DNA of 64,000 nt from Pseudomonas pisciculturae (GTDB taxonomy: Bacteria; Pseudomonadota; Gammaproteobacteria; Pseudomonadales; Pseudomonadaceae), in NCBI RefSeq assembly GCF_015461805.1, contig NZ_JACVZE010000001.1:62001-126000 (forward strand). Reading direction: 5' to 3'. Positions 8,126-16,546 of the stretch are shown here, in pieces (within the stretch, counting starts at the first letter, position 1; each line of letters starts with the position of its first letter). Both the position numbers and the translations under genes were made by a program. Below the pieces are notes generated by a model. It made no database searches, was not told where the DNA came from, and saw only the letters and a list, made by a program, of their open reading frames with translations.

Positions 8126-8617
8126 TCAGTGCCCAAGTTGGTCGGCGATCCAGTGCAGCAGGGGAAACAGCAGGGCCCAGAGCACGCTCAGGCCGATCAA
8201 GGTCGGCGTCGTGGCATAGCCGAAACTCACACCCGCCAACTGGCTGCCCGCGTAATACGACAGCGGCCCGCCTACGGCGCCCAACAGGCTGGCGCGCCAC
8301 CAGGGCTGGGCGCTCCAGGCCAGGCAATGGCGCAGCGTCGTCGCCAGCACCGCCCACAGCAGTATCAGCCACATCGGAATCAGCGGCCCCGGCATGCTGA
8401 AATGAAACACACCAAACGTACGCAACGACGTGTCGATCACCGTCCCCAACAAGGTGATGGCGAGGATCACCTGCCCCTCCTTGGACCAGGCACTTACCCA
8501 CAGCAGGTGGATGGCCAGCACGGCGACACCCACCAACAGCCATGGGCTATTGCCCCCCAACACACAGGCAAACCAGCCGCACTGGAACAGCACGGCGTTG
8601 GCCAGTGGTTTAAGCAT
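8126..8617 (-). CDS. DUF2878 family integral membrane protein
   Basis: A 163-residue, strongly hydrophobic protein starting MLKPLANAVLFQCGWFACVL. It has about five predicted membrane segments, the conserved WSKEGQ turn after the second and a TLIGLSVLWALLFPLLHW segment at the end, matching DUF2878. The ATG overlaps the stop of the Cfa-like gene by 8 nt (ATGCTTAA region), so it is translationally coupled to it. It is the last gene of the proposed light-responsive operon. Its function is unknown; the company of lipid-modifying enzymes suggests a membrane-lipid role (inference). Confidence 0.85.
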   Translation of the reverse strand: MLKPLANAVLFQCGWFACVLGGNSPWLLVGVAVLAIHLLWVSAWSKEGQVILAITLLGTVIDTSLRTFGVFHFSMPGPLIPMWLILLWAVLATTLRHCLAWSAQPWWRASLLGAVGGPLSYYAGSQLAGVSFGYATTPTLIGLSVLWALLFPLLHWIADQLGH

Positions 8618-9881
8618 TGAAGCGCCCGAGCAGCGGCGGGTTGAGGGCGGCCGGTTTGGCCAGCAGTAATTGCGCGGTGCCAATGGTGCGCTCCATAAAC
8701 CCACCCTCGCAGTAGCACAGGTAAAACTCCCACAAACGCAGGAAGTACTCGTCGTAGCCCAACTCCCCAAGGCGGCCATGGGCTCGGCGAAAGTTCTCAT
8801 GCCACAGGCGCAGGGTGCGTGCGTAATGCAGGCCGAAATCCTCCATGTGCATCAGGTTCATGTCGGTGTCGCGGCTGACGATCTCCAGCATCTTCTGCAT
8901 GCAGGGCAGGGCGCCGCCGGGGAAGATATACCGCTGGATAAAATCGACGTTGTGCTTGGCCTGCTCGTAGCGCTGGTCACGAATGGTGATGGCTTGCAGC
9001 AGCATCAGGCCATCGCTCTTGAGCAACTGCGCGCATTGCTTGAAGTAGGTGGGCAGGAAGCGATGGCCCACCGCTTCGATCATCTCGATAGACACCAGCT
9101 TGTCGTAGTAGCCGGTGAGGTCGCGGTAGTCCTGCAATAGCAGCGTCACCTGGCCCTTCAAGCCCAGCGCCTCGATGCGTTTTTCGGTGTAGGCGAACTG
9201 CTCTTTCGACAGGGTTGTAGTGGTGACCTTGCACCCATAGTGCTGCGCTGCATACAGCGCCATGCTGCCCCAGCCGGTGCCGATTTCCAGCAGGTGATCG
9301 TCGGGCTTGAGCGCGAGTTTCTGGCAGATGCGCTCCAGTTTGTTCAATTGCGCCTGTTCCAGCGTGTCGTCGGGGGTCAGAAATTGCGCCGCCGAATACA
9401 TCATGGTGGGGTCGAGGAATTCTTCGAACAGGTCATTGCCCAGGTCGTAGTGGGCGGCGATGTTTTTCTGCGAGCCTTTGCGCGTATTGCGGTTCAGCCA
9501 GTGCAGGCCTCTGGTGATGGGGCGTGCCACGCGCGCCAGGCCGCCTTCCATCGCGTCGAGTACGTCGAGGTTACTGACCATCACGCGCACTACGGTGGTC
9601 AGGTCCGGGCTGCTCCAGTAACCGTGAATATACGCCTCGCCGGCGCCGATGGAACCATTGGCCGCCACCATCCCCCACACTGCCGGGTCGAGAATCTGGA
9701 TTTCTCCCAGCAACTGCGCTTCCCGTGCGCCAAACACCCGGCGCTCGCCGTCCTCGATCACCACCAGTTGACCGTGGCGAAGCTGGCCGAGTTGACGCAG
9801 CACCGCCTTGCGCAGCAGTGCAGTGGTCATGCCGTTGACGTTCAGGCGGTTGGCCTTGACCGATAAGCTAGGGGTTTTCAT
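8610..9881 (-). CDS. Cyclopropane-fatty-acid-synthase-like SAM methyltransferase
   Basis: The 423-residue product belongs to the CFA synthase family, which methylates unsaturated acyl chains of phospholipids at the membrane. The SAM motif LLEIGTGWGSMALYAA lies near residue 200, preceded by the family segment NIAAHYDLGNDLFEEFLDPTMMYS. The start chosen is ATG 9881 (MKTPSLSVK), which overlaps the DUF1365 stop by 14 nt; an upstream start at 9926 would lie deep in that gene. It follows an FAD oxidoreductase and DUF1365, the arrangement known from furan-fatty-acid loci, where the Cfa-like enzyme (UfaM) adds a methyl branch rather than making a ring. UfaM-type activity is therefore as likely as cyclopropanation. 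Confidence 0.88.
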   Translation of the reverse strand: MKTPSLSVKANRLNVNGMTTALLRKAVLRQLGQLRHGQLVVIEDGERRVFGAREAQLLGEIQILDPAVWGMVAANGSIGAGEAYIHGYWSSPDLTTVVRVMVSNLDVLDAMEGGLARVARPITRGLHWLNRNTRKGSQKNIAAHYDLGNDLFEEFLDPTMMYSAAQFLTPDDTLEQAQLNKLERICQKLALKPDDHLLEIGTGWGSMALYAAQHYGCKVTTTTLSKEQFAYTEKRIEALGLKGQVTLLLQDYRDLTGYYDKLVSIEMIEAVGHRFLPTYFKQCAQLLKSDGLMLLQAITIRDQRYEQAKHNVDFIQRYIFPGGALPCMQKMLEIVSRDTDMNLMHMEDFGLHYARTLRLWHENFRRAHGRLGELGYDEYFLRLWEFYLCYCEGGFMERTIGTAQLLLAKPAALNPPLLGRFNA

Positions 9882-10677
9882 GGCGGCGATCCTTGGTATA
9901 CCCGACTGCAGTGCTGGAGACGCCATCGGCGGCCTGGTGGGAAAAAATCGGTGTGCGTTTGAGTAACAGGCGAAGCGCCTGCCAGTAAATCGCGAGGCAG
10001 GTCTTGGCGGTCATCCACGGAAAGCGCCACAGGTAGCGATGCAGGCTGGCGCGATTCAGTGCTTCTTTTTCAAGGCTCAAGGTGGCATCGAAGACTTTTT
10101 GCGCACCCTGCCAGTCGGCCATATGCACGCCGAGACGGGCGGCGGGTGGGCTGAAGCTCATGCGGTATTCCAGGTCGCGAGGCAAAAACGGCGACACATG
10201 AAACGCCTTGGCCACGGCGAAATGCTGGTGTTCATCGGCATCCAGCGCCTGGGCGGGAAGCACGTAGTGGTAGCGCTCGCGCCATGGGGTGTTGGTCACT
10301 TCACACAGGATCGCAGCCAGTTGCCCATCGGCCTCGAAGCAGTAGAAGAAACTCACGGGGTTAAAAGCCAGGCCCCAACTGCGGGCCTGGGTCAGCAGGC
10401 AGATAACGCCCTGGGGTGTACGCCCCAAGGCCTTGCCGACTTCCTGGCGCACGGCATCGCTCAAGCTCATGCCGGTGCGCGTCAATTCACGCAGGTAATC
10501 CTGCTGGCGAAACCCGAAGGGCGCAAAACGACTGCGCCCGGCGAGGGGCGAGAGCCCCAGCACGAGGTGTTCTTCGCTTAAATCCAGGTACAGCAGGCCG
10601 ATGCGGTAGCGAAAGGCGTGGGCCTTGGGCGTAAATCGGCGATGGGCAATCCAGCCGCTGTACAGGGCGCTGTTCAC
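9868..10677 (-). CDS. DUF1365 family protein
   Basis: A 269-residue protein starting MNSALYSGWIAHRRFTPKAHAFRYR, the conserved DUF1365 N-terminus, followed by NPVSFFYC near residue 107 and EVTNTPWRERYHYVL near 127. There is no signal peptide and no known catalytic motif. In many bacteria it lies between an FAD-dependent amine-oxidase-like gene and a Cfa-like gene, exactly as here, and it overlaps both by a few bases. A role in the same lipid modification is a fair inference; the biochemical activity is not known to me. Confidence 0.88.
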   Translation of the reverse strand: MNSALYSGWIAHRRFTPKAHAFRYRIGLLYLDLSEEHLVLGLSPLAGRSRFAPFGFRQQDYLRELTRTGMSLSDAVRQEVGKALGRTPQGVICLLTQARSWGLAFNPVSFFYCFEADGQLAAILCEVTNTPWRERYHYVLPAQALDADEHQHFAVAKAFHVSPFLPRDLEYRMSFSPPAARLGVHMADWQGAQKVFDATLSLEKEALNRASLHRYLWRFPWMTAKTCLAIYWQALRLLLKRTPIFSHQAADGVSSTAVGYTKDRRHENP

Positions 10678-11921
10678 AGGCTTTCCCCAAAGGCTTGGGC
10701 GACGCGCAGAGCGCTGACCACGCCGTCTTCGTGAAAACCGTTGGCCCAGTAGGCGCCGCAGTAAAAGGTGTTGCGCACGCCAGAGACTTCTTCCCAGCGC
10801 CCTTGGGCTGCTACCGCCGCCAGGCTGTATTGCGGGTGAGCGTAGGTGTAGCGGGCCAACACTTTGAGCGGGTTGATTGCTGATGTTTGGTTAAGGCTGA
10901 CGCAAAACGTGGTGGCGCTGTCGATGCCTTGCAGGATGTTCATGTCGTAGGTCACGGCCGCCTGGGCCTGCGCATTGCCGCTGAGCCGGTAATTCCAGCT
11001 CGCCCAGGCCAGTTTACGGTCGGGCAACAGGCGGGTGTCGGTGTGTAGCACCACGTCGTTATCGGCGTAGGGCATAGCGCCGAGGATCTCGTGTTCGGCC
11101 TGGGTCGGGTCGGCGAGCAAGGCCAGGGCCTGGTCGCTGTGGCAGGCGAACACCACGCGGTCGAAGGTCTCTGCGCCCATGGCGCTGTGGATAACCACGC
11201 TGTCGTCGGTGCGCTCAACTTTATCCACAGGGCAATTGAGGCGAATCTGCTCGCGAAAGCTGTGGGTCAGCGGTTCGATGTAGCGGCTGGAGCCGCCCTC
11301 GATCACGCACCACTGCGGGCGATTACTCACCGAGAGCAGGCCGTGGTTCTTGAAGAAGCGCACAAAGAACTGCAACGGAAAGCCCAGCATGTCGGCCAGG
11401 GACATCGACCAGATCGCCGCGCCCATCGGCACGATGTAATGCCGGATAAACCGCTCGCCGTAACCGCCCGCCGCGAGGTAGTCGCCCAAGGTCATGTCGG
11501 CGCTGATGCGCTGCTCTTGCAGGTCCAGCGGCGCCTGGCGGTTGAAGCGCAGAATGTCACGCAACATCCCCCAGAACCCCGGCGACAGGATGTTGCGCCG
11601 CTGGGCAAACAGGCTGTTGAGGTTATTGCCGTTGTACTCAAGGCCAGAGTTTTCATCGCACACCGAAAAACTCATTTCGGTGGGTTTAAACGTCACCCCG
11701 ATCTGCCCCAGCAAGCGGATGAAGTTGGGGTAGGTCCAGTCGTTGAACACGATAAAACCCGTGTCCACCGCATAGCTTTTGCCCTCGACGGTCACATTGA
11801 CCGTATGGGTATGCCCGCCGATGCGGTCGCCCGCTTCAAACACGGTGATCTCGTGCTGGCGACTGAGCAGATAGGCACTGGTAAGCCCGGCAATGCCGCT
11901 GCCGATAATGGCGATCTTCAC
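10674..11921 (-). CDS. FAD-dependent (amine-oxidase-like) oxidoreductase
   Basis: A 415-residue flavoprotein. The N-terminal dinucleotide-binding motif IAIIGSGIAGLTSAYLLS (from residue 3) is followed by EAGDRIGGHTHTV, the second FAD motif of the amine-oxidase/desaturase fold. I place the start at GTG 11921, which overlaps the upstream SDR stop in a GTGA junction; an open frame reaching 12008 would intrude into the SDR gene and add an unlikely N-terminus. It resembles the desaturase-like flavoproteins of furan-fatty-acid and Cfa loci. Substrate unknown, probably an acyl chain of a membrane lipid (inference from its operon partners). Confidence 0.87.
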   Translation of the reverse strand: MKIAIIGSGIAGLTSAYLLSRQHEITVFEAGDRIGGHTHTVNVTVEGKSYAVDTGFIVFNDWTYPNFIRLLGQIGVTFKPTEMSFSVCDENSGLEYNGNNLNSLFAQRRNILSPGFWGMLRDILRFNRQAPLDLQEQRISADMTLGDYLAAGGYGERFIRHYIVPMGAAIWSMSLADMLGFPLQFFVRFFKNHGLLSVSNRPQWCVIEGGSSRYIEPLTHSFREQIRLNCPVDKVERTDDSVVIHSAMGAETFDRVVFACHSDQALALLADPTQAEHEILGAMPYADNDVVLHTDTRLLPDRKLAWASWNYRLSGNAQAQAAVTYDMNILQGIDSATTFCVSLNQTSAINPLKVLARYTYAHPQYSLAAVAAQGRWEEVSGVRNTFYCGAYWANGFHEDGVVSALRVAQAFGESL

Positions 11922-12700
11922 AGGTCGTCCTTTTTCGGCGGTGGGCTGCGCAGCATGCGCTTGCCGATGATCAGTTGCGCACGGGCGGGCAGCTTCGACA
12001 GAGGCCACAGGGTGGCGATAAACAGCGCCGGAAAGGCGATTTCAAGTGGGCGTTTATGCAGCTTGGCAAAGATATGTTTAGCGGCTTTATCTGCCGGCCA
12101 GCTCAGTGGCATGGGAAAGTCGTTGCGCTCGGTCAGTGGCGTGTCGACAAAGCCTGGGCTGATCACCGTCACGTCGATATTTTCTGTCGACAGGCTGATG
12201 CGCAGGGATTCGAACAGGTAACGCAGGCCCGCCTTCGATGCGCCGTAGGCCTCGGCGCGGGGCATCGGCAGGTAGGTCACCGCGCTTGCGACGCCGACCA
12301 AGTGCGGCGTGTGGCCCGCGCGCAAAAGCGGCAGGGCGGCTTCGATGCAGTAACTGCTGGCCAGCAGGTTGGTGCGCACCACGTGTTCGATGATGGAGGC
12401 GTCAAATTGCTTGGCGTCCACATATTCGCAGGTGCCCGCGTTGAGGATCACGGTGTCCAGCGCCCCCCATTCGGTCGCGATCTGTTCACCGATTTCACGT
12501 ACCGTCTGGCTGTTGGTCAAATCGCCAGCCACCACCAGGACTTGCCCTGGATAGTGTTCGGCCAGGGTGTCCAGCGGGGCTCTTGAGCGTGAGCTGACGG
12601 CAACGTGTGCGCCGCTTTCAAGCAGCTCGATCGCCAGTGCGGCACCAATGCCACTGCTGGCACCGGTCAACCAATAACGACGGGGAGACACTGTGTTCAT
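11918..12700 (-). CDS. Short-chain dehydrogenase/reductase
   Basis: A 260-residue SDR enzyme. It has the cofactor loop TGASSGIGAALA (about residues 13-24), the NAG segment (VILNAGT, near 90), and the active-site YGASK motif (near residue 155) preceded by the catalytic Ser of VASAVTY. NADP preference is suggested by SSRSR after the second strand. The C-terminus is basic and hydrophobic, which may anchor it to the membrane. It overlaps its neighbours on both sides by 4 nt and is the fifth gene of the operon. Substrate not predictable. Confidence 0.88.
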   Translation of the reverse strand: MNTVSPRRYWLTGASSGIGAALAIELLESGAHVAVSSRSRAPLDTLAEHYPGQVLVVAGDLTNSQTVREIGEQIATEWGALDTVILNAGTCEYVDAKQFDASIIEHVVRTNLLASSYCIEAALPLLRAGHTPHLVGVASAVTYLPMPRAEAYGASKAGLRYLFESLRISLSTENIDVTVISPGFVDTPLTERNDFPMPLSWPADKAAKHIFAKLHKRPLEIAFPALFIATLWPLSKLPARAQLIIGKRMLRSPPPKKDDL

Positions 12701-13119
12701 CCCACTCTCCTTTTCAGCCAGCCGACGACGCCGCCCAGCACGGGCAGGTGTTCATAGAGCATGGCGCCGGCATCGAAATAGTCGCGATGGCGGTAGACCT
12801 TGTCGCGCCATAGCAAGTGCGAGCAGCCTTCCACCCGGATAACCTTGCCGCCGGCCAGGCGCGGGTGGCAAAAGCTCATCTTCCAGCGCAGGTAACCCTC
12901 GCCCTCGGCCACTTGATCAAACCCGTGGAAGTCGAAGCGCAGCTGGGTGACATTGCTGTAGAGCTCTGCGAAATAACTGTGCAGGGCGGTGAGCCCGTGC
13001 ACCTCATGCAGCGGGTCGGTAAACGCGATGTCTTTGCTGTAGAGGCTGTCGAGCAGGTGCAAGTTGTGCTTGTCCAGCGTGGCAAAGGCCTGGGCGAAGC
13101 GCTGCAAGAAGTCACTCAT
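12697..13119 (-). CDS. SnoaL-like / nuclear transport factor 2 fold protein
   Basis: A 140-residue protein beginning MSDFLQRFAQAFATLDKHNLHLLDSLYSKDI, followed by FTDPLHEVHG and ending with the aromatic-rich YRHRDYFDAGAMLYEHLPVLG. This is the pattern of the NTF2-like SnoaL superfamily, a cone-shaped fold that binds hydrophobic ligands or acts as a small isomerase or hydrolase. Its ATG overlaps the phrB stop by 8 nt. A gene of this family follows phrB in other pseudomonads. No specific reaction can be assigned. Confidence 0.83.
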   Translation of the reverse strand: MSDFLQRFAQAFATLDKHNLHLLDSLYSKDIAFTDPLHEVHGLTALHSYFAELYSNVTQLRFDFHGFDQVAEGEGYLRWKMSFCHPRLAGGKVIRVEGCSHLLWRDKVYRHRDYFDAGAMLYEHLPVLGGVVGWLKRRVG

Positions 13120-14557
13120 GTTCACCTCCGGCCGCTTCCCGTGACGGCAGGCTGCGGAAGGCTGCCAGGGCACGCTCGCGGGATTTCTTCAGGTCGACAA
13201 TCGAGCGCGGGTAATCCGCTACGCCGAACAGGCCGCCGACAGCTTCGGGGTTGTGGACTTCTTTTTTGTTCAGTGCGGCCAGCTCTGGCAGCCAGCGTTT
13301 GATAAACACGCCTTCACCATCGAATTTTTCCGACTGGCTCAACGGGCTGAAAATCCGGAAATACGGCGCCGAATCGGTACCGGTGGACGAGCTCCACTGC
13401 CAGCCGCCGTTGTTGGCCGCCAGGTCGCCGTCGATCAGGTGGCGCATAAAGAAACGCTCGCCCTCACGCCAGTCGATCAACAGGTTCTTGGTCAGGAACA
13501 TCGCCACCACCATGCGCAGGCGGTTGTGCATCCAGCCGGTTTCGAGCAACTGGCGCATGGCGGCGTCGATGATCGGTAGGCCGGTGCGCGCCTCCTGCCA
13601 GGCGGCCAGGTCCTTGGGGGCGTTGCGCCACGCCACGGCTTCGGTTTCAGGGCGGAACGCACGGTGGCGCGACACCCGTGGGTAGCCCACCAGAATGTGT
13701 TTGTAGAACTCTCGCCACAGCAGCTCGTTGATCCAGGTGATGGCGCCCATGTCGCCACTTTCGAACTCGCCCTGGTTGGTTTGCAGCGCGGCATGCAGGC
13801 ACTGGCGTGGCGAAACCACGCCCGCCGCGAGATACGCTGAGAGCTGGCTGGTGCCGGGTTTGGCCGGGAAGTCGCGCTCGTCCTTGTAGTAGCTGATCTG
13901 CTGATCGGCAAAGGTATCGAGGCGACGCCGCGCTTCGTCTTCACCGGCAGGCCACAGGGCGCGCAGGGTTTCGCTAGGGGGCTCAAAGCCATCAACGGTG
14001 TGCGGGATGGGATCGCTTTTAAGCTTGATCGCAGCCTGCGCTTTCGGCGCTGCCACCAAGCGCGGCAGGCTGCTGTGCAAGCGGGTGTAGCAGACCTTGC
14101 GAAACTGGCTGAACACCTTGAAGTAGGTGTCGGTTTTGGTCAGCACGCTGCCGGGCTGGAAAAACAATTGATCCAAGTAGCTATGGAAGGTCACGCCGTC
14201 GGCTTCCAGCGCTTTGGACACCGCTGCGTCACGACGGCTTTCGTGGATGCCGTATTCTTCGTTGACGTGCACCGACTCCACCGACAGTTCGCGGCACAGT
14301 TGGCTCAACACGGCGGGCGCATTGTTCCAGGTCGGGGCAGTGCGGATCAGCAGTGGAACATTCAGTTCAGCCAACGCCTTGCTCAGGTGTTGCAGGTTGC
14401 GCAACCAGAAGTCCACTTTGCACGGCGCATCGTCGTGGGCCCGCCACTGCTCGGGTGTGATCAGGTACACAGCCGCCATCGGACCCCGCTGGCTCGCGGC
14501 GGTCAGGGCGGTGTTGTCGTGTAGGCGCAGGTCGGTGCGCAGCCAGATCAGATGCAT
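13112..14557 (-). CDS. phrB: Deoxyribodipyrimidine photolyase
   Basis: PhrB uses blue light, FAD and an antenna pigment to split cyclobutane pyrimidine dimers. The 481-residue product starts MHLIWLRTDLRLHDNTAL, the canonical photolyase N-terminus for the antenna domain. The C-terminal FAD domain carries TGLPIIDAAMRQL, WMHNRLRM and the signature WQWSSSTGTDSAPYFRIF (about residues 380-397). Length and motifs fit a class I CPD photolyase. It directly follows the MerR-type regulator and continues into the SnoaL/SDR/lipid genes, so repair and lipid genes should share one transcript. Confidence 0.96.
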   Translation of the reverse strand: MHLIWLRTDLRLHDNTALTAASQRGPMAAVYLITPEQWRAHDDAPCKVDFWLRNLQHLSKALAELNVPLLIRTAPTWNNAPAVLSQLCRELSVESVHVNEEYGIHESRRDAAVSKALEADGVTFHSYLDQLFFQPGSVLTKTDTYFKVFSQFRKVCYTRLHSSLPRLVAAPKAQAAIKLKSDPIPHTVDGFEPPSETLRALWPAGEDEARRRLDTFADQQISYYKDERDFPAKPGTSQLSAYLAAGVVSPRQCLHAALQTNQGEFESGDMGAITWINELLWREFYKHILVGYPRVSRHRAFRPETEAVAWRNAPKDLAAWQEARTGLPIIDAAMRQLLETGWMHNRLRMVVAMFLTKNLLIDWREGERFFMRHLIDGDLAANNGGWQWSSSTGTDSAPYFRIFSPLSQSEKFDGEGVFIKRWLPELAALNKKEVHNPEAVGGLFGVADYPRSIVDLKKSRERALAAFRSLPSREAAGGEHE

Positions 14558-15490
14558 TTAAACGATTCCACGCTGGATCAGTAGCTGATGGGCCGACAAC
14601 GGGTCTTCGGCCACGAACAATTGCGGGGTGTCACGGGTTAATACCGAGAACTCGTCCTGATGGATGCACACCGTTGGTCCGGCAATTAACGTTGGGCAAC
14701 CCACACCGCTCAGAAGTTTTGTGAGTGCCGACAAGTGGAGGGCTTTGCTGGAATACAGCAGCACGGCACGCGGTTTCAGGTGTTCCACTGCCAAGGCCAG
14801 TTCGCCGGCTGGCAGCGGCCAATCGAACACTTCCACCGGGCAGTCGGCACTGCTGGCCAGCCAGGCGCTGAGCCACAGGTGCGGCTCAAGGGGCAGGTCG
14901 GAATGGTTGACCAGCAGCAGCGGCGCGCCGTGGAGTTGGCGATTGTTGTGGTAGATGCGCGCGCCAAACTTGCTGCGCAGCCATGACAGGAAAAACACCC
15001 GTTCCATCTGCGCGCCAAACTGGCCTTGCCAGCGCTGTTCGAGGTCGTTGAGCAGCGGCAGCATGAGTTGCTCGCACAAAGTGCGCGGCGGGTACAGCGC
15101 CATGGCCTGGTTGAAGGCATCGTCGACCCGGCGTTCGGCCAGTTCGCTGATGGCGTTCACCAGGGTCTGGCGCAGGGCGTGCCATTCATTTTCGACGGCA
15201 TCGGGAATCGGTTGGGCGGAGTCGATCAGGCCTTTGACCTGGCTGACCGGCACGCCGCGATTGAGCCAGGTGAGGATGGTGTGGATGCGTTGCACGTGTT
15301 CGGCACTGAACAGGCGATGGCCCTTGGGCGTGCGCTGCGGCACGATCAGGCCATAGCGGCGCTCCCAGGCGCGCAGCGTCACGGCGTTGACGCCGGTCTG
15401 GCGCGCCACTTCGCGAATCGGCAGCCAGCCTTCTTCAAGGGCTTGGGCGAGGTCTTCGCCGGGTTCTTCCAGCAGGGCAGGGGTCATCAT
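14558..15490 (-). CDS. MerR-family regulator, class II LitR-like (light response)
   Basis: A 310-residue regulator. An N-terminal MerR helix-turn-helix and wing (WLPIREVARQTGVNAVTLRAWERRYGL, residues about 22-48) is followed by a helical region and a Rossmann-like half of the CarH/LitR type. In B12-binding CarH proteins the helical bundle carries W-x9-EH; here the aligned segment is W154...E163-R164, so the His is missing, and no DxHxxG cobalamin motif is seen in the last domain. This fits class II LitR proteins, which respond to light without binding B12 themselves. It sits between the DUF523 fusion gene and phrB, and the TGTACA-N12-TGTACA boxes at 16.5 kb are its probable targets. P. putida PplR1 is, as I recall, the characterised homologue. 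Confidence 0.87.
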   Translation of the reverse strand: MMTPALLEEPGEDLAQALEEGWLPIREVARQTGVNAVTLRAWERRYGLIVPQRTPKGHRLFSAEHVQRIHTILTWLNRGVPVSQVKGLIDSAQPIPDAVENEWHALRQTLVNAISELAERRVDDAFNQAMALYPPRTLCEQLMLPLLNDLEQRWQGQFGAQMERVFFLSWLRSKFGARIYHNNRQLHGAPLLLVNHSDLPLEPHLWLSAWLASSADCPVEVFDWPLPAGELALAVEHLKPRAVLLYSSKALHLSALTKLLSGVGCPTLIAGPTVCIHQDEFSVLTRDTPQLFVAEDPLSAHQLLIQRGIV

Positions 15491-16450
15491 CTAGATCGCA
15501 TTTCGCAGGCTGAGGTTTTCCGGGTGCGGCTGCAGGTAGGCCTGCTGCGCGATGTAGCGGTCCGGGTGTTGACGAAAGTGGTGTTTGAGCAAGGTCAGCG
15601 GCACTACGAGAGGTACGACACCGTGGCGGTATTGGCCGATGACAGTCTGCATTTCCTGTTTGTCATCGGCGCTGATGACCTGCTTGAGGTAGCCGCTGAT
15701 GTGTTGCAGCACATTGGTGTGGGTGCCACGGGTGGCGCATTGCGTCAGGCCAGTCATCAAGTCGCTGAAATAGCAGGCGGCGAGTTCGTCGAGTTGGGTG
15801 CCCTTGCTCATGCTGCCCAACAGCTGCCCGAGGCTTTTGTAGTGCGCTGGACTGTGGGCCATCAGCAGGTATTTGTAGCGTGAGTGAAAGGCCAGCAGGC
15901 GGTGGCGGGTCAGGCCTTCGGCGAGCAGTTGTTGCCAGCTGGCATAAACAAACACGCGGGTGAGGAAGTTTTCCCGTAGCACCGGGTCATTCAGCCGGCC
16001 GTCTTCTTCCACCGGCAAATTGGGGTGACGTGAGCAGAACGCCTGGGCGTAGATACCCCGCCCGCCACCGTCCACTGGCGTACCGTTGTCGCGGTAGACC
16101 TTGACCCGTTCCAGGCCGCAAGAGGGCGACTTTTGCATAAAGATGTAACCGCACAGATCGGTGTGCTCTGCGGCCATTTGCTGACCGTAGTCGTCCAACG
16201 GTTGGGTCACGTTGAGTTCGCGGTGCACGGTGCCGACCGCCTGCGGGTGGGCGGGGTCACCCACCAGGCGAATCGGTTCACGAGGAATGCCTAGGCCGAT
16301 GGCGACCTCGGGGCACAGTGGCACAAAGTCGAAGTAATCGGCGAGGGTTTGGCTGCACAGCAGGGATTGTTTATGTCCGCCGTTGAAGCGCACGTTCTCG
16401 CCCAACAGGCAGGCGCTGATGGCGATCTTCGGTTTGCGGGTGTTGGACAT
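15491..16450 (-). CDS. DUF523 (TudS-like Fe-S desulfidase) fused to DUF1722 (YbgA)
   Basis: A 319-residue two-domain protein. The N-terminal DUF523 domain shows the three conserved cysteines of TudS-type enzymes: C14 in SACLLGEN, C46 in LCPEVAIGLG and C111 in SPSCGLERVKVY. These hold an Fe-S cluster that removes sulfur from thiouracil or 4-thiouridine monophosphate in characterised members. The C-terminal half (about 195-310) is DUF1722: LLAFHSRYKYLLMAHSP, then the YRHGVVPLVVPLTLLKHH segment. It is the first gene after the tandem LitR boxes. E. coli has the DUF1722-containing ybgA next to its photolyase gene, so the link with light repair is conserved. The true substrate here is unproven. Confidence 0.88.
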   Translation of the reverse strand: MSNTRKPKIAISACLLGENVRFNGGHKQSLLCSQTLADYFDFVPLCPEVAIGLGIPREPIRLVGDPAHPQAVGTVHRELNVTQPLDDYGQQMAAEHTDLCGYIFMQKSPSCGLERVKVYRDNGTPVDGGGRGIYAQAFCSRHPNLPVEEDGRLNDPVLRENFLTRVFVYASWQQLLAEGLTRHRLLAFHSRYKYLLMAHSPAHYKSLGQLLGSMSKGTQLDELAACYFSDLMTGLTQCATRGTHTNVLQHISGYLKQVISADDKQEMQTVIGQYRHGVVPLVVPLTLLKHHFRQHPDRYIAQQAYLQPHPENLSLRNAI

Positions 16451-16506: not shown

Positions 16507-16534
16507 ATCATAGGTTCGATGCTGTACAAGTCAA
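16507..16534 (-). promoter_or_regulatory. Predicted sigma-70-like promoter of the light-response operon
   Basis: Read on the minus strand, TTGACT (complement of 16529-16534) is followed after 16 nt by TATGAT (complement of 16507-16512). The -35 hexamer lies inside LitR box 2 and the -10 lies between the two boxes, so regulator binding would cover the promoter. Both hexamers are close to consensus. The transcription start has not been mapped. Confidence 0.55.
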
Positions 16535-16546
16535 ATTATTTGTACA
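16523..16546. promoter_or_regulatory. LitR-type box 2 (TGTACA-N12-TGTACA)
   Basis: A second perfect pair, TGTACA at 16523-16528 and 16541-16546, again with a 12-nt spacer. Its centre is 50 bp from that of box 1, about five helical turns, so proteins on both boxes would lie on the same DNA face and could interact. Confidence 0.85.

Follow-up and report, generated by a model that had tools for sequence, protein, structure and literature searches.

The gene at 15491-16450 of the window (the whole stretch of Pseudomonas pisciculturae DNA that was analysed, 64,000 nucleotides in length) is rudS, and the core of this finding is already known, having been in print since 2024 (PMC11417400). In the reading we favour, and in which we have considerable confidence, the gene encodes an eraser of 4-thiouridine (s4U) in tRNA and belongs to a LitR-repressed, light-induced operon that also contains a photolyase, so that the near-UV chromophore is removed before the tRNA is cross-linked. 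The gene is the first of nine closely packed genes on the minus strand, whose junctions are 0 nt or overlapping (some starts are assumed), and is preceded by a promoter and two regulatory boxes:

16523..16546, no strand: LitR/PplR box TGTACA-N12-TGTACA over the -35 hexamer, equivalent to Site 1 (consensus of PMC9758184)
16507..16534, minus strand: sigma-70-type promoter TTGACT-N16-TATGAT (hexamers and spacing as in P6650 of P. mendocina, PMC9758184)
16473..16496, no strand: LitR/PplR box TGTACA-N12-TGTACA lying between promoter and start codon, equivalent to Site 2 (consensus of PMC9758184)
15491..16450, minus strand: rudS, fusion of TudS (DUF523) and DUF1722 (ORF list, Pfam, residue check against RudS_KT)
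14558..15490, minus strand: litR, LitR-like MerR regulator (MerR HTH and B12-binding_2) in the position of PplR1/PmlR1 (ORF list, Pfam)
13112..14557, minus strand: phrB, DNA photolyase (ORF list, Pfam)
12697..13128, minus strand: operon gene 4, SnoaL-like protein, internal start assumed (ORF list, Pfam)
11918..12700, minus strand: operon gene 5, short-chain dehydrogenase (ORF list, Pfam)
10674..11927, minus strand: operon gene 6, FAD-dependent oxidoreductase, start assumed (ORF list, Pfam)
9868..10677, minus strand: operon gene 7, DUF1365 protein (ORF list, Pfam)
8610..9926, minus strand: operon gene 8, CMAS-family methyltransferase, ufaM-like by position (Pfam, gene order of PMC9758184)
8126..8617, minus strand: operon gene 9, DUF2878 protein

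A preliminary description had placed rudS directly beside phrB. The two do share an operon, but litR, in which both MerR_1 and B12-binding_2 score above their Pfam cut-offs, sits between them with a stop-to-start distance of 0 nt at either junction, and phrB is not the immediate neighbour.

The rudS product has 319 aa. Pfam assigns residues 9-150 to the 2-thiour_desulf/DUF523 (TudS) domain (E 1.6e-36), which is N-terminal to the tRNA-binding domain DUF1722 at residues 193-310 (E 8.8e-43). A residue check against RudS_KT, which is PP_0741 of P. putida KT2440 (PMC11417400), found all three cluster cysteines (C14, C46, C111) and also the catalytic E48, R57, S108 and S110 of RudS_KT, seven of seven in total; the fusion and its cysteine pattern, as first described, are confirmed. 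Mutants of P. putida RudS in the cluster cysteines and in the corresponding Glu, Arg, Ser and Ser had their activity abolished (PMC11417400). The Fe-S desulfidase chemistry on 4-thio compounds that had been proposed is in print in that paper, while the anatomy was checked here. Tables 1 and 2 of that paper list 36 positions; comparing these by the printed residue numbers, offset by 3, we find the window protein equal to RudS_KT at 23 and different at 13. Three of the differing residues lie where mutation lowered the activity of RudS_KT (N202, N203 and S243, which are H199, S200 and T240 in the window protein). Residues in contact with tRNA whose mutation lowered RudS_KT activity and that are kept here comprise R21, N23, G24, R61, E149, R152, C238, R241 and T243; F22 stands where RudS_KT has Tyr25, and RudS_KT stayed fully active upon exchange of this tyrosine for Phe (PMC11417400).

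Fusions of TudS and DUF1722 were named RudS by authors who reported a lowering of tRNA s4U by these proteins, both in vivo and in vitro, binding of tRNA by P. putida RudS, and a UVA growth delay shortened from ~105 to ~60 minutes upon its overexpression in E. coli (PMC11417400); the connection between near-UV and s4U that had been suspected from the sequence is thereby in print. RudS_KT and the window protein have in common not only the domain order and the cluster and catalytic residues but also an operon with litR and phrB, a genomic ThiI and a second, stand-alone TudS. From these likenesses we infer that the window protein probably acts as its published relatives do.

An alternative is that RudS recycles 4-thiouracil, 4-thiouridine or 4-thio-UMP set free by tRNA turnover, as stand-alone TudS does, and a role on released thio-nucleotides had indeed been suggested for this gene. 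The catalytic residues are common to both proteins, and overexpressed P. putida RudS allowed an E. coli uracil auxotroph to grow on 4-thiouracil, albeit with a long lag (PMC11417400). Stand-alone TudS (PDB 6z92; PMC10611767), the only solved structure that a sequence search with an E limit of 1 gave (E 2.2e-7), shares the catalytic domain with the window protein, but consists of a single DUF523 domain, lacks DUF1722 and prefers 4-thio-UMP over tRNA; its active-site Lys98 is replaced by Met108 in RudS_KT and by M105 in the window protein. From knockouts in P. putida it was suggested that use of 4-thiouracil and 4-thiouridine involves the stand-alone TudS (PP_5158) but not RudS (PP_0741) (PMC11417400), and deletion of tudS abolished growth on these compounds while s4U in tRNA was virtually unchanged (PMC10611767). 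The genome from which the window is taken has a stand-alone TudS gene of its own (164 aa), located elsewhere, as well as the s4U maker ThiI (C14:412115-412690, E 2.0e-60), which is present in 94% of species with DUF1722 (PMC11417400). Use of thio-nucleotides and erasure in tRNA thus appear to be split between two genes, with the window gene as the tRNA eraser, and we consider salvage very unlikely.

The second alternative concerns the consequences of irradiation. Near-UV joins s4U8 to C13, which hinders charging of the tRNA (review, PMC7694415). RudS and the photolyase might jointly repair cross-linked or otherwise photodamaged tRNA, a view with which the photolyase linkage in two gene orders, described below, would agree. 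The s4U8-C13 photoadduct, however, has already lost its sulfur, and so prevention of tRNA photodamage fits better than repair. The citation of 'The tRNA repair hypothesis', an older paper, in PMC11417400 would also speak for it, but the activity published in PMC11417400 is on s4U in tRNA, DNA is a sufficient substrate for the photolyase, and the literature examined yielded no direct test of joint repair. We regard joint repair as highly improbable, and the processing of photodamaged s4U that had been envisaged for the gene is likewise unsupported, given the same published activity and the same loss of sulfur. The best reading is that RudS averts photodamage to tRNA and does not repair it.

A third view holds that light-induced erasure of s4U serves regulation (tRNA stability, or ppGpp and the stringent response) more than protection. 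Alarmones are discussed in PMC11417400, where two tRNAs were less abundant after RudS overexpression, yet (p)ppGpp left the activity of the enzyme unchanged in vitro. The company of the photolyase points instead to photoprotection, although the two readings are not exclusive; a mainly regulatory role is in our opinion unlikely, but clearly less so than salvage or joint repair. It cuts against erasure being simply protective that Salmonella mutants lacking s4U were reported to be more sensitive to killing by near-UV (cited in PMC11417400; similarly PMC7695249). In Enterobacter cloacae, where rudS and a MerR gene are close together, s4U was reported to fall under UVA (discussion of PMC11417400); s4U is also dethiolated by UVA itself (PMC7695249).

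That the operon is controlled by light is indicated by its upstream region. Two exact TRTACA-N12-TGTAYA boxes precede rudS, and a chance origin of this pair was ruled out, as none occurred in 100 shuffles of the window. In P. mendocina, a nine-gene unit from PME6650 to PME6610 is induced by blue light, and its promoter P6650 carries Site 1 across the -35 hexamer, with Site 2 lying after the transcription start and before the start codon, both footprinted and both TGTACA-N12-TGTACA, with 16 bases between the hexamers (PMC9758184). The window shares the two sites, the promoter hexamers and the spacing, and its nine genes follow an order compatible with PME6650-PME6610, as in the class II LitR/short-LOV operon of Pseudomonas (PplR1-3, PmlR1/2; PMC9758184); judged by position only, PME6650 would be rudS. 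The placing of the gene under light boxes in the preliminary description therefore holds, and the light control itself is in print (PMC9758184).

Among named Pseudomonas, the best 80 of 238 relatives found were inspected. All 80 have at least one box in the 250 bp that precede the rudS match, and 71 of these 80 have two or more, while no box was found elsewhere in the same loci (1,294,109 bases); the 80 loci are close relatives and not independent cases.

The box pattern occurs at four places in the whole genome. Besides the two upstream of rudS, one (C20:181324) falls within an ORF of 727 aa (L090 3045-5228) that looks to us like a molybdenum-type dehydrogenase, and was taken as chance. At the other (G000:C1:784324-784347), far from the operon, a box precedes a DUF3833 gene by about 50 bp (L089:2751-3272, minus strand); this box may be real, and the gene a further one under light control.

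A paralogue of LitR is encoded elsewhere in the genome (L088:1393-2385, minus strand); it is the only one at E up to 0.001, and Pfam gives MerR only. About 0.7 kb away is a PAS/LOV-like ORF of 155 aa (L088:259-726, plus strand), a candidate LOV protein by its CRFLQ motif and its PAS matches. The two form a probable light sensor pair. In the published class II LitR systems of relatives, for which anti-repression of LitR by LOV has been demonstrated, a LitR paralogue and a LOV protein are likewise encoded close together, but there the two genes are directly adjacent whereas an ORF of 201 aa lies between them here, and P. putida has three PplRs against the single paralogue in our genome (PMC9758184).

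RudS genes were described as often occurring in light-responsive operons (PMC11417400); counts of the photolyase linkage and the occurrence of two gene orders are what is added here. Among 398 Pseudomonadota genomes, 103 have DUF1722, and all 111 matches were taken with their flanks (109 loci, some ended by contig ends); 96 are fused RudS and 15 are not fused. Of the 96 fused rudS genes, 60, spread over 13 of 24 families, have a photolyase gene on the same strand at most 1.5 kb away, so that the recurring tie between DUF1722 and photolyase suggested earlier stands up in a survey; in the fetched flanks of the other 36, no photolyase was found. rudS comes first in 53 loci and the photolyase in 7, all of the latter in a single family (f39) outside the class to which the window belongs.

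Chance neighbourhood, with rudS and phrB in one operon but without a functional tie, could draw on the fact that linkage is inherited within families, the 60 loci being far from 60 independent events. A rough expectation of about 0.4 in 96 (from assumed round numbers) nevertheless compares with 60 observed, and the opposite gene orders (53 vs 7 loci) also speak against it; we give this explanation hardly any weight. It is presumably fitness in sunlight that keeps rudS and phrB together.

Family f39 holds a further arrangement. In five loci (L129, L132, L137, L138, L200), a frame of 236-298 aa that matches DUF1722 weakly precedes a stand-alone TudS frame of 159-187 aa on the same strand, the reverse of the order in the fusion, and in L131 and L180 such a cluster also contains a fused RudS.

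The survey agrees with the published link between DUF1722 and s4U synthesis (PMC11417400): a strong ThiI match (best E at most 1e-30, a cut-off set after the match list had been seen) is present in 81 of 103 genomes with DUF1722 vs 58 of 295 without. The 22 remaining DUF1722 genomes lack such a match, several of them being incomplete (e.g. 67, 74 and 78%). Together with the 36 of 96 genes without a photolyase, this means that the light link is not universal, and nor is s4U.

The fused proteins differ according to this division. Among 75 from genomes with strong ThiI, a photolyase is near in 59, Lys105 is found in 13 and Arg241 in 61, whereas the respective numbers for the 21 from genomes without strong ThiI are 1, 20 and 2. 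All seven catalytic and cluster residues are kept in each of these 21, while S110 is Thr in 12 of the 75. We had considered a statistical link between ThiI, photolyase, Lys105 and Arg241, but in spite of strong raw counts it was rejected, as shared descent explains it as well: on the tree, Lys105 changes once, and there are only 3 independent pairs for ThiI. Since the traits are largely inherited together, no p-value is claimed, and RudS without ThiI is treated as a lead only. One locus (L182, genome G193) combines a RudS-photolyase neighbourhood with the lack of a strong ThiI match in its genome, and has Pro in place of Arg241; here the cassette has possibly outlived its modification.

The ybgA-phr pair of E. 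coli had been cited in support of a functional tie. The position is as claimed, ybgA (169 aa) being next to phr on its upstream side and overlapping it by 4 nt, but YbgA has no desulfidase, and its overexpression left s4U unchanged (PMC11417400), a combination that speaks for shared ancestry more than for shared function. Positions 9-165 of the 169 in the NCBI YbgA model align to residues 161-317 of the window protein, and no TudS match was found in the E. coli ybgA stretch. YbgA hence corresponds to RudS minus its TudS half, with the linker kept, and shares with RudS the place before phr.

The pair was followed in 198 enterobacterial genomes, 114 of which gave 119 matches. Neighbourhoods were taken for 40 matches, 20 mainly with short or odd frames and 20 others, with 10 more from the phylum survey. 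In the 20 loci picked mainly for short frames, there were 18 with DUF1722 but no TudS match at E 1e-5 (12 of the 18 beside phr), one whole RudS and one with a shrunken TudS half, the share of stand-alone genes in such a sample not being an estimate of their frequency; of the 20 further loci, with fused RudS, 19 are beside phr. The shrunken half (L250:4479-5282, plus strand) is in frame and lies directly before a photolyase gene. Pfam scores it below the TudS cut-off; the first cysteine is kept but the CPE and SPSC motifs, two of the three cluster motifs, are gone. In the tree this protein groups with the intact L260 (100/99).

Two other loci have altered frames. In an enterobacterium (L244:4310-5108, plus strand), DUF1722 extends over two overlapping frames and looks frameshifted. 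In the genus of the window (L212:5776-6459, minus strand), a DUF1722 frame by phr has only 228 aa with no TudS half found, and is perhaps a broken rudS.

The tree comprises 66 domains (L244 and L271, which have partial domains, were left out). Its best version places E. coli YbgA among phr-linked RudS (90/78, the branch not being starred). AU tests rejected neither a position of all stand-alone phr-linked rows outside the enterobacterial RudS (p 0.093) nor that of the E. coli group alone (p 0.18), nor stand-alone YbgA as one clade (p 0.18). The origin of stand-alone YbgA takes 4 changes on the best tree, of which starred branches force 1, and the bootstrap has not settled the number. We asked whether the state of Arg241 (R244 of RudS_KT) marks a loss of tRNA binding in YbgA; all 28 of the fused phr-linked proteins from enterobacteria (L250 included) have this residue vs 7 of 13 stand-alone phr-linked ones, but it was rejected as not diagnostic, as 0 of 13 fused proteins in f39 have it.

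The authors of RudS suggested that it had been split into two genes (PMC11417400), but loss of one half fits the enterobacterial loci studied here better. In E. coli, ybgA-phr has the look of a former rudS-phr pair whose desulfidase half may have been lost, with a half-ruined intermediate (L250) in another genome, though the tree tests give no proof. A wider proposal, which we put forward tentatively and hold to be rather doubtful, would make rudS-phr an old photoprotection cassette that decayed in Enterobacteriaceae, perhaps more than once, to ybgA-phr, with YbgA a tRNA-binding remnant whose job has changed; the RudS-like proteins left in ThiI-less genomes (with a TudS-type Lys at 105 and without a photolyase beside them) would have a different substrate. 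A search of titles and the beginnings of abstracts, with most subscription journals outside it, on YbgA together with photolyase or DUF1722 and on 4-thiouridine together with photolyase gave only PMC11417400 on the subject.

For the window operon, we envisage the following course. Without light, LitR would sit on the two boxes and repress the nine genes; in blue light, a short LOV protein would take LitR off, and eraser and photolyase would be made together. The photolyase would mend pyrimidine dimers in DNA. The DUF1722 domain of RudS would hold the tRNA while the TudS domain, with a [4Fe-4S] cluster on the three cysteines, would exchange the C4 sulfur of s4U8 for oxygen and leave U8, so that the near-UV chromophore would be taken away before the tRNA is cross-linked and growth stalls.

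In the literature examined, we found neither a rudS deletion with a UVA phenotype nor a light-dependent fall of s4U tied to rudS by mutation in a native host. It is in this missing native-host test, together with the lead on YbgA, that the interest of the finding lies, and the window operon makes a test of a rudS-dependent fall of s4U in the native host direct. Preliminary claims about the gene were in sum partly supported. The operon would represent a clean case of light-switched tRNA de-modification, which both mends DNA and disarms the near-UV chromophore of tRNA. Should the proposal for Enterobacteriaceae be true, it would explain the orphan gene beside phr of E. coli, and the organism usually employed to study the s4U-driven growth delay under UVA would be one that has lost its own eraser.
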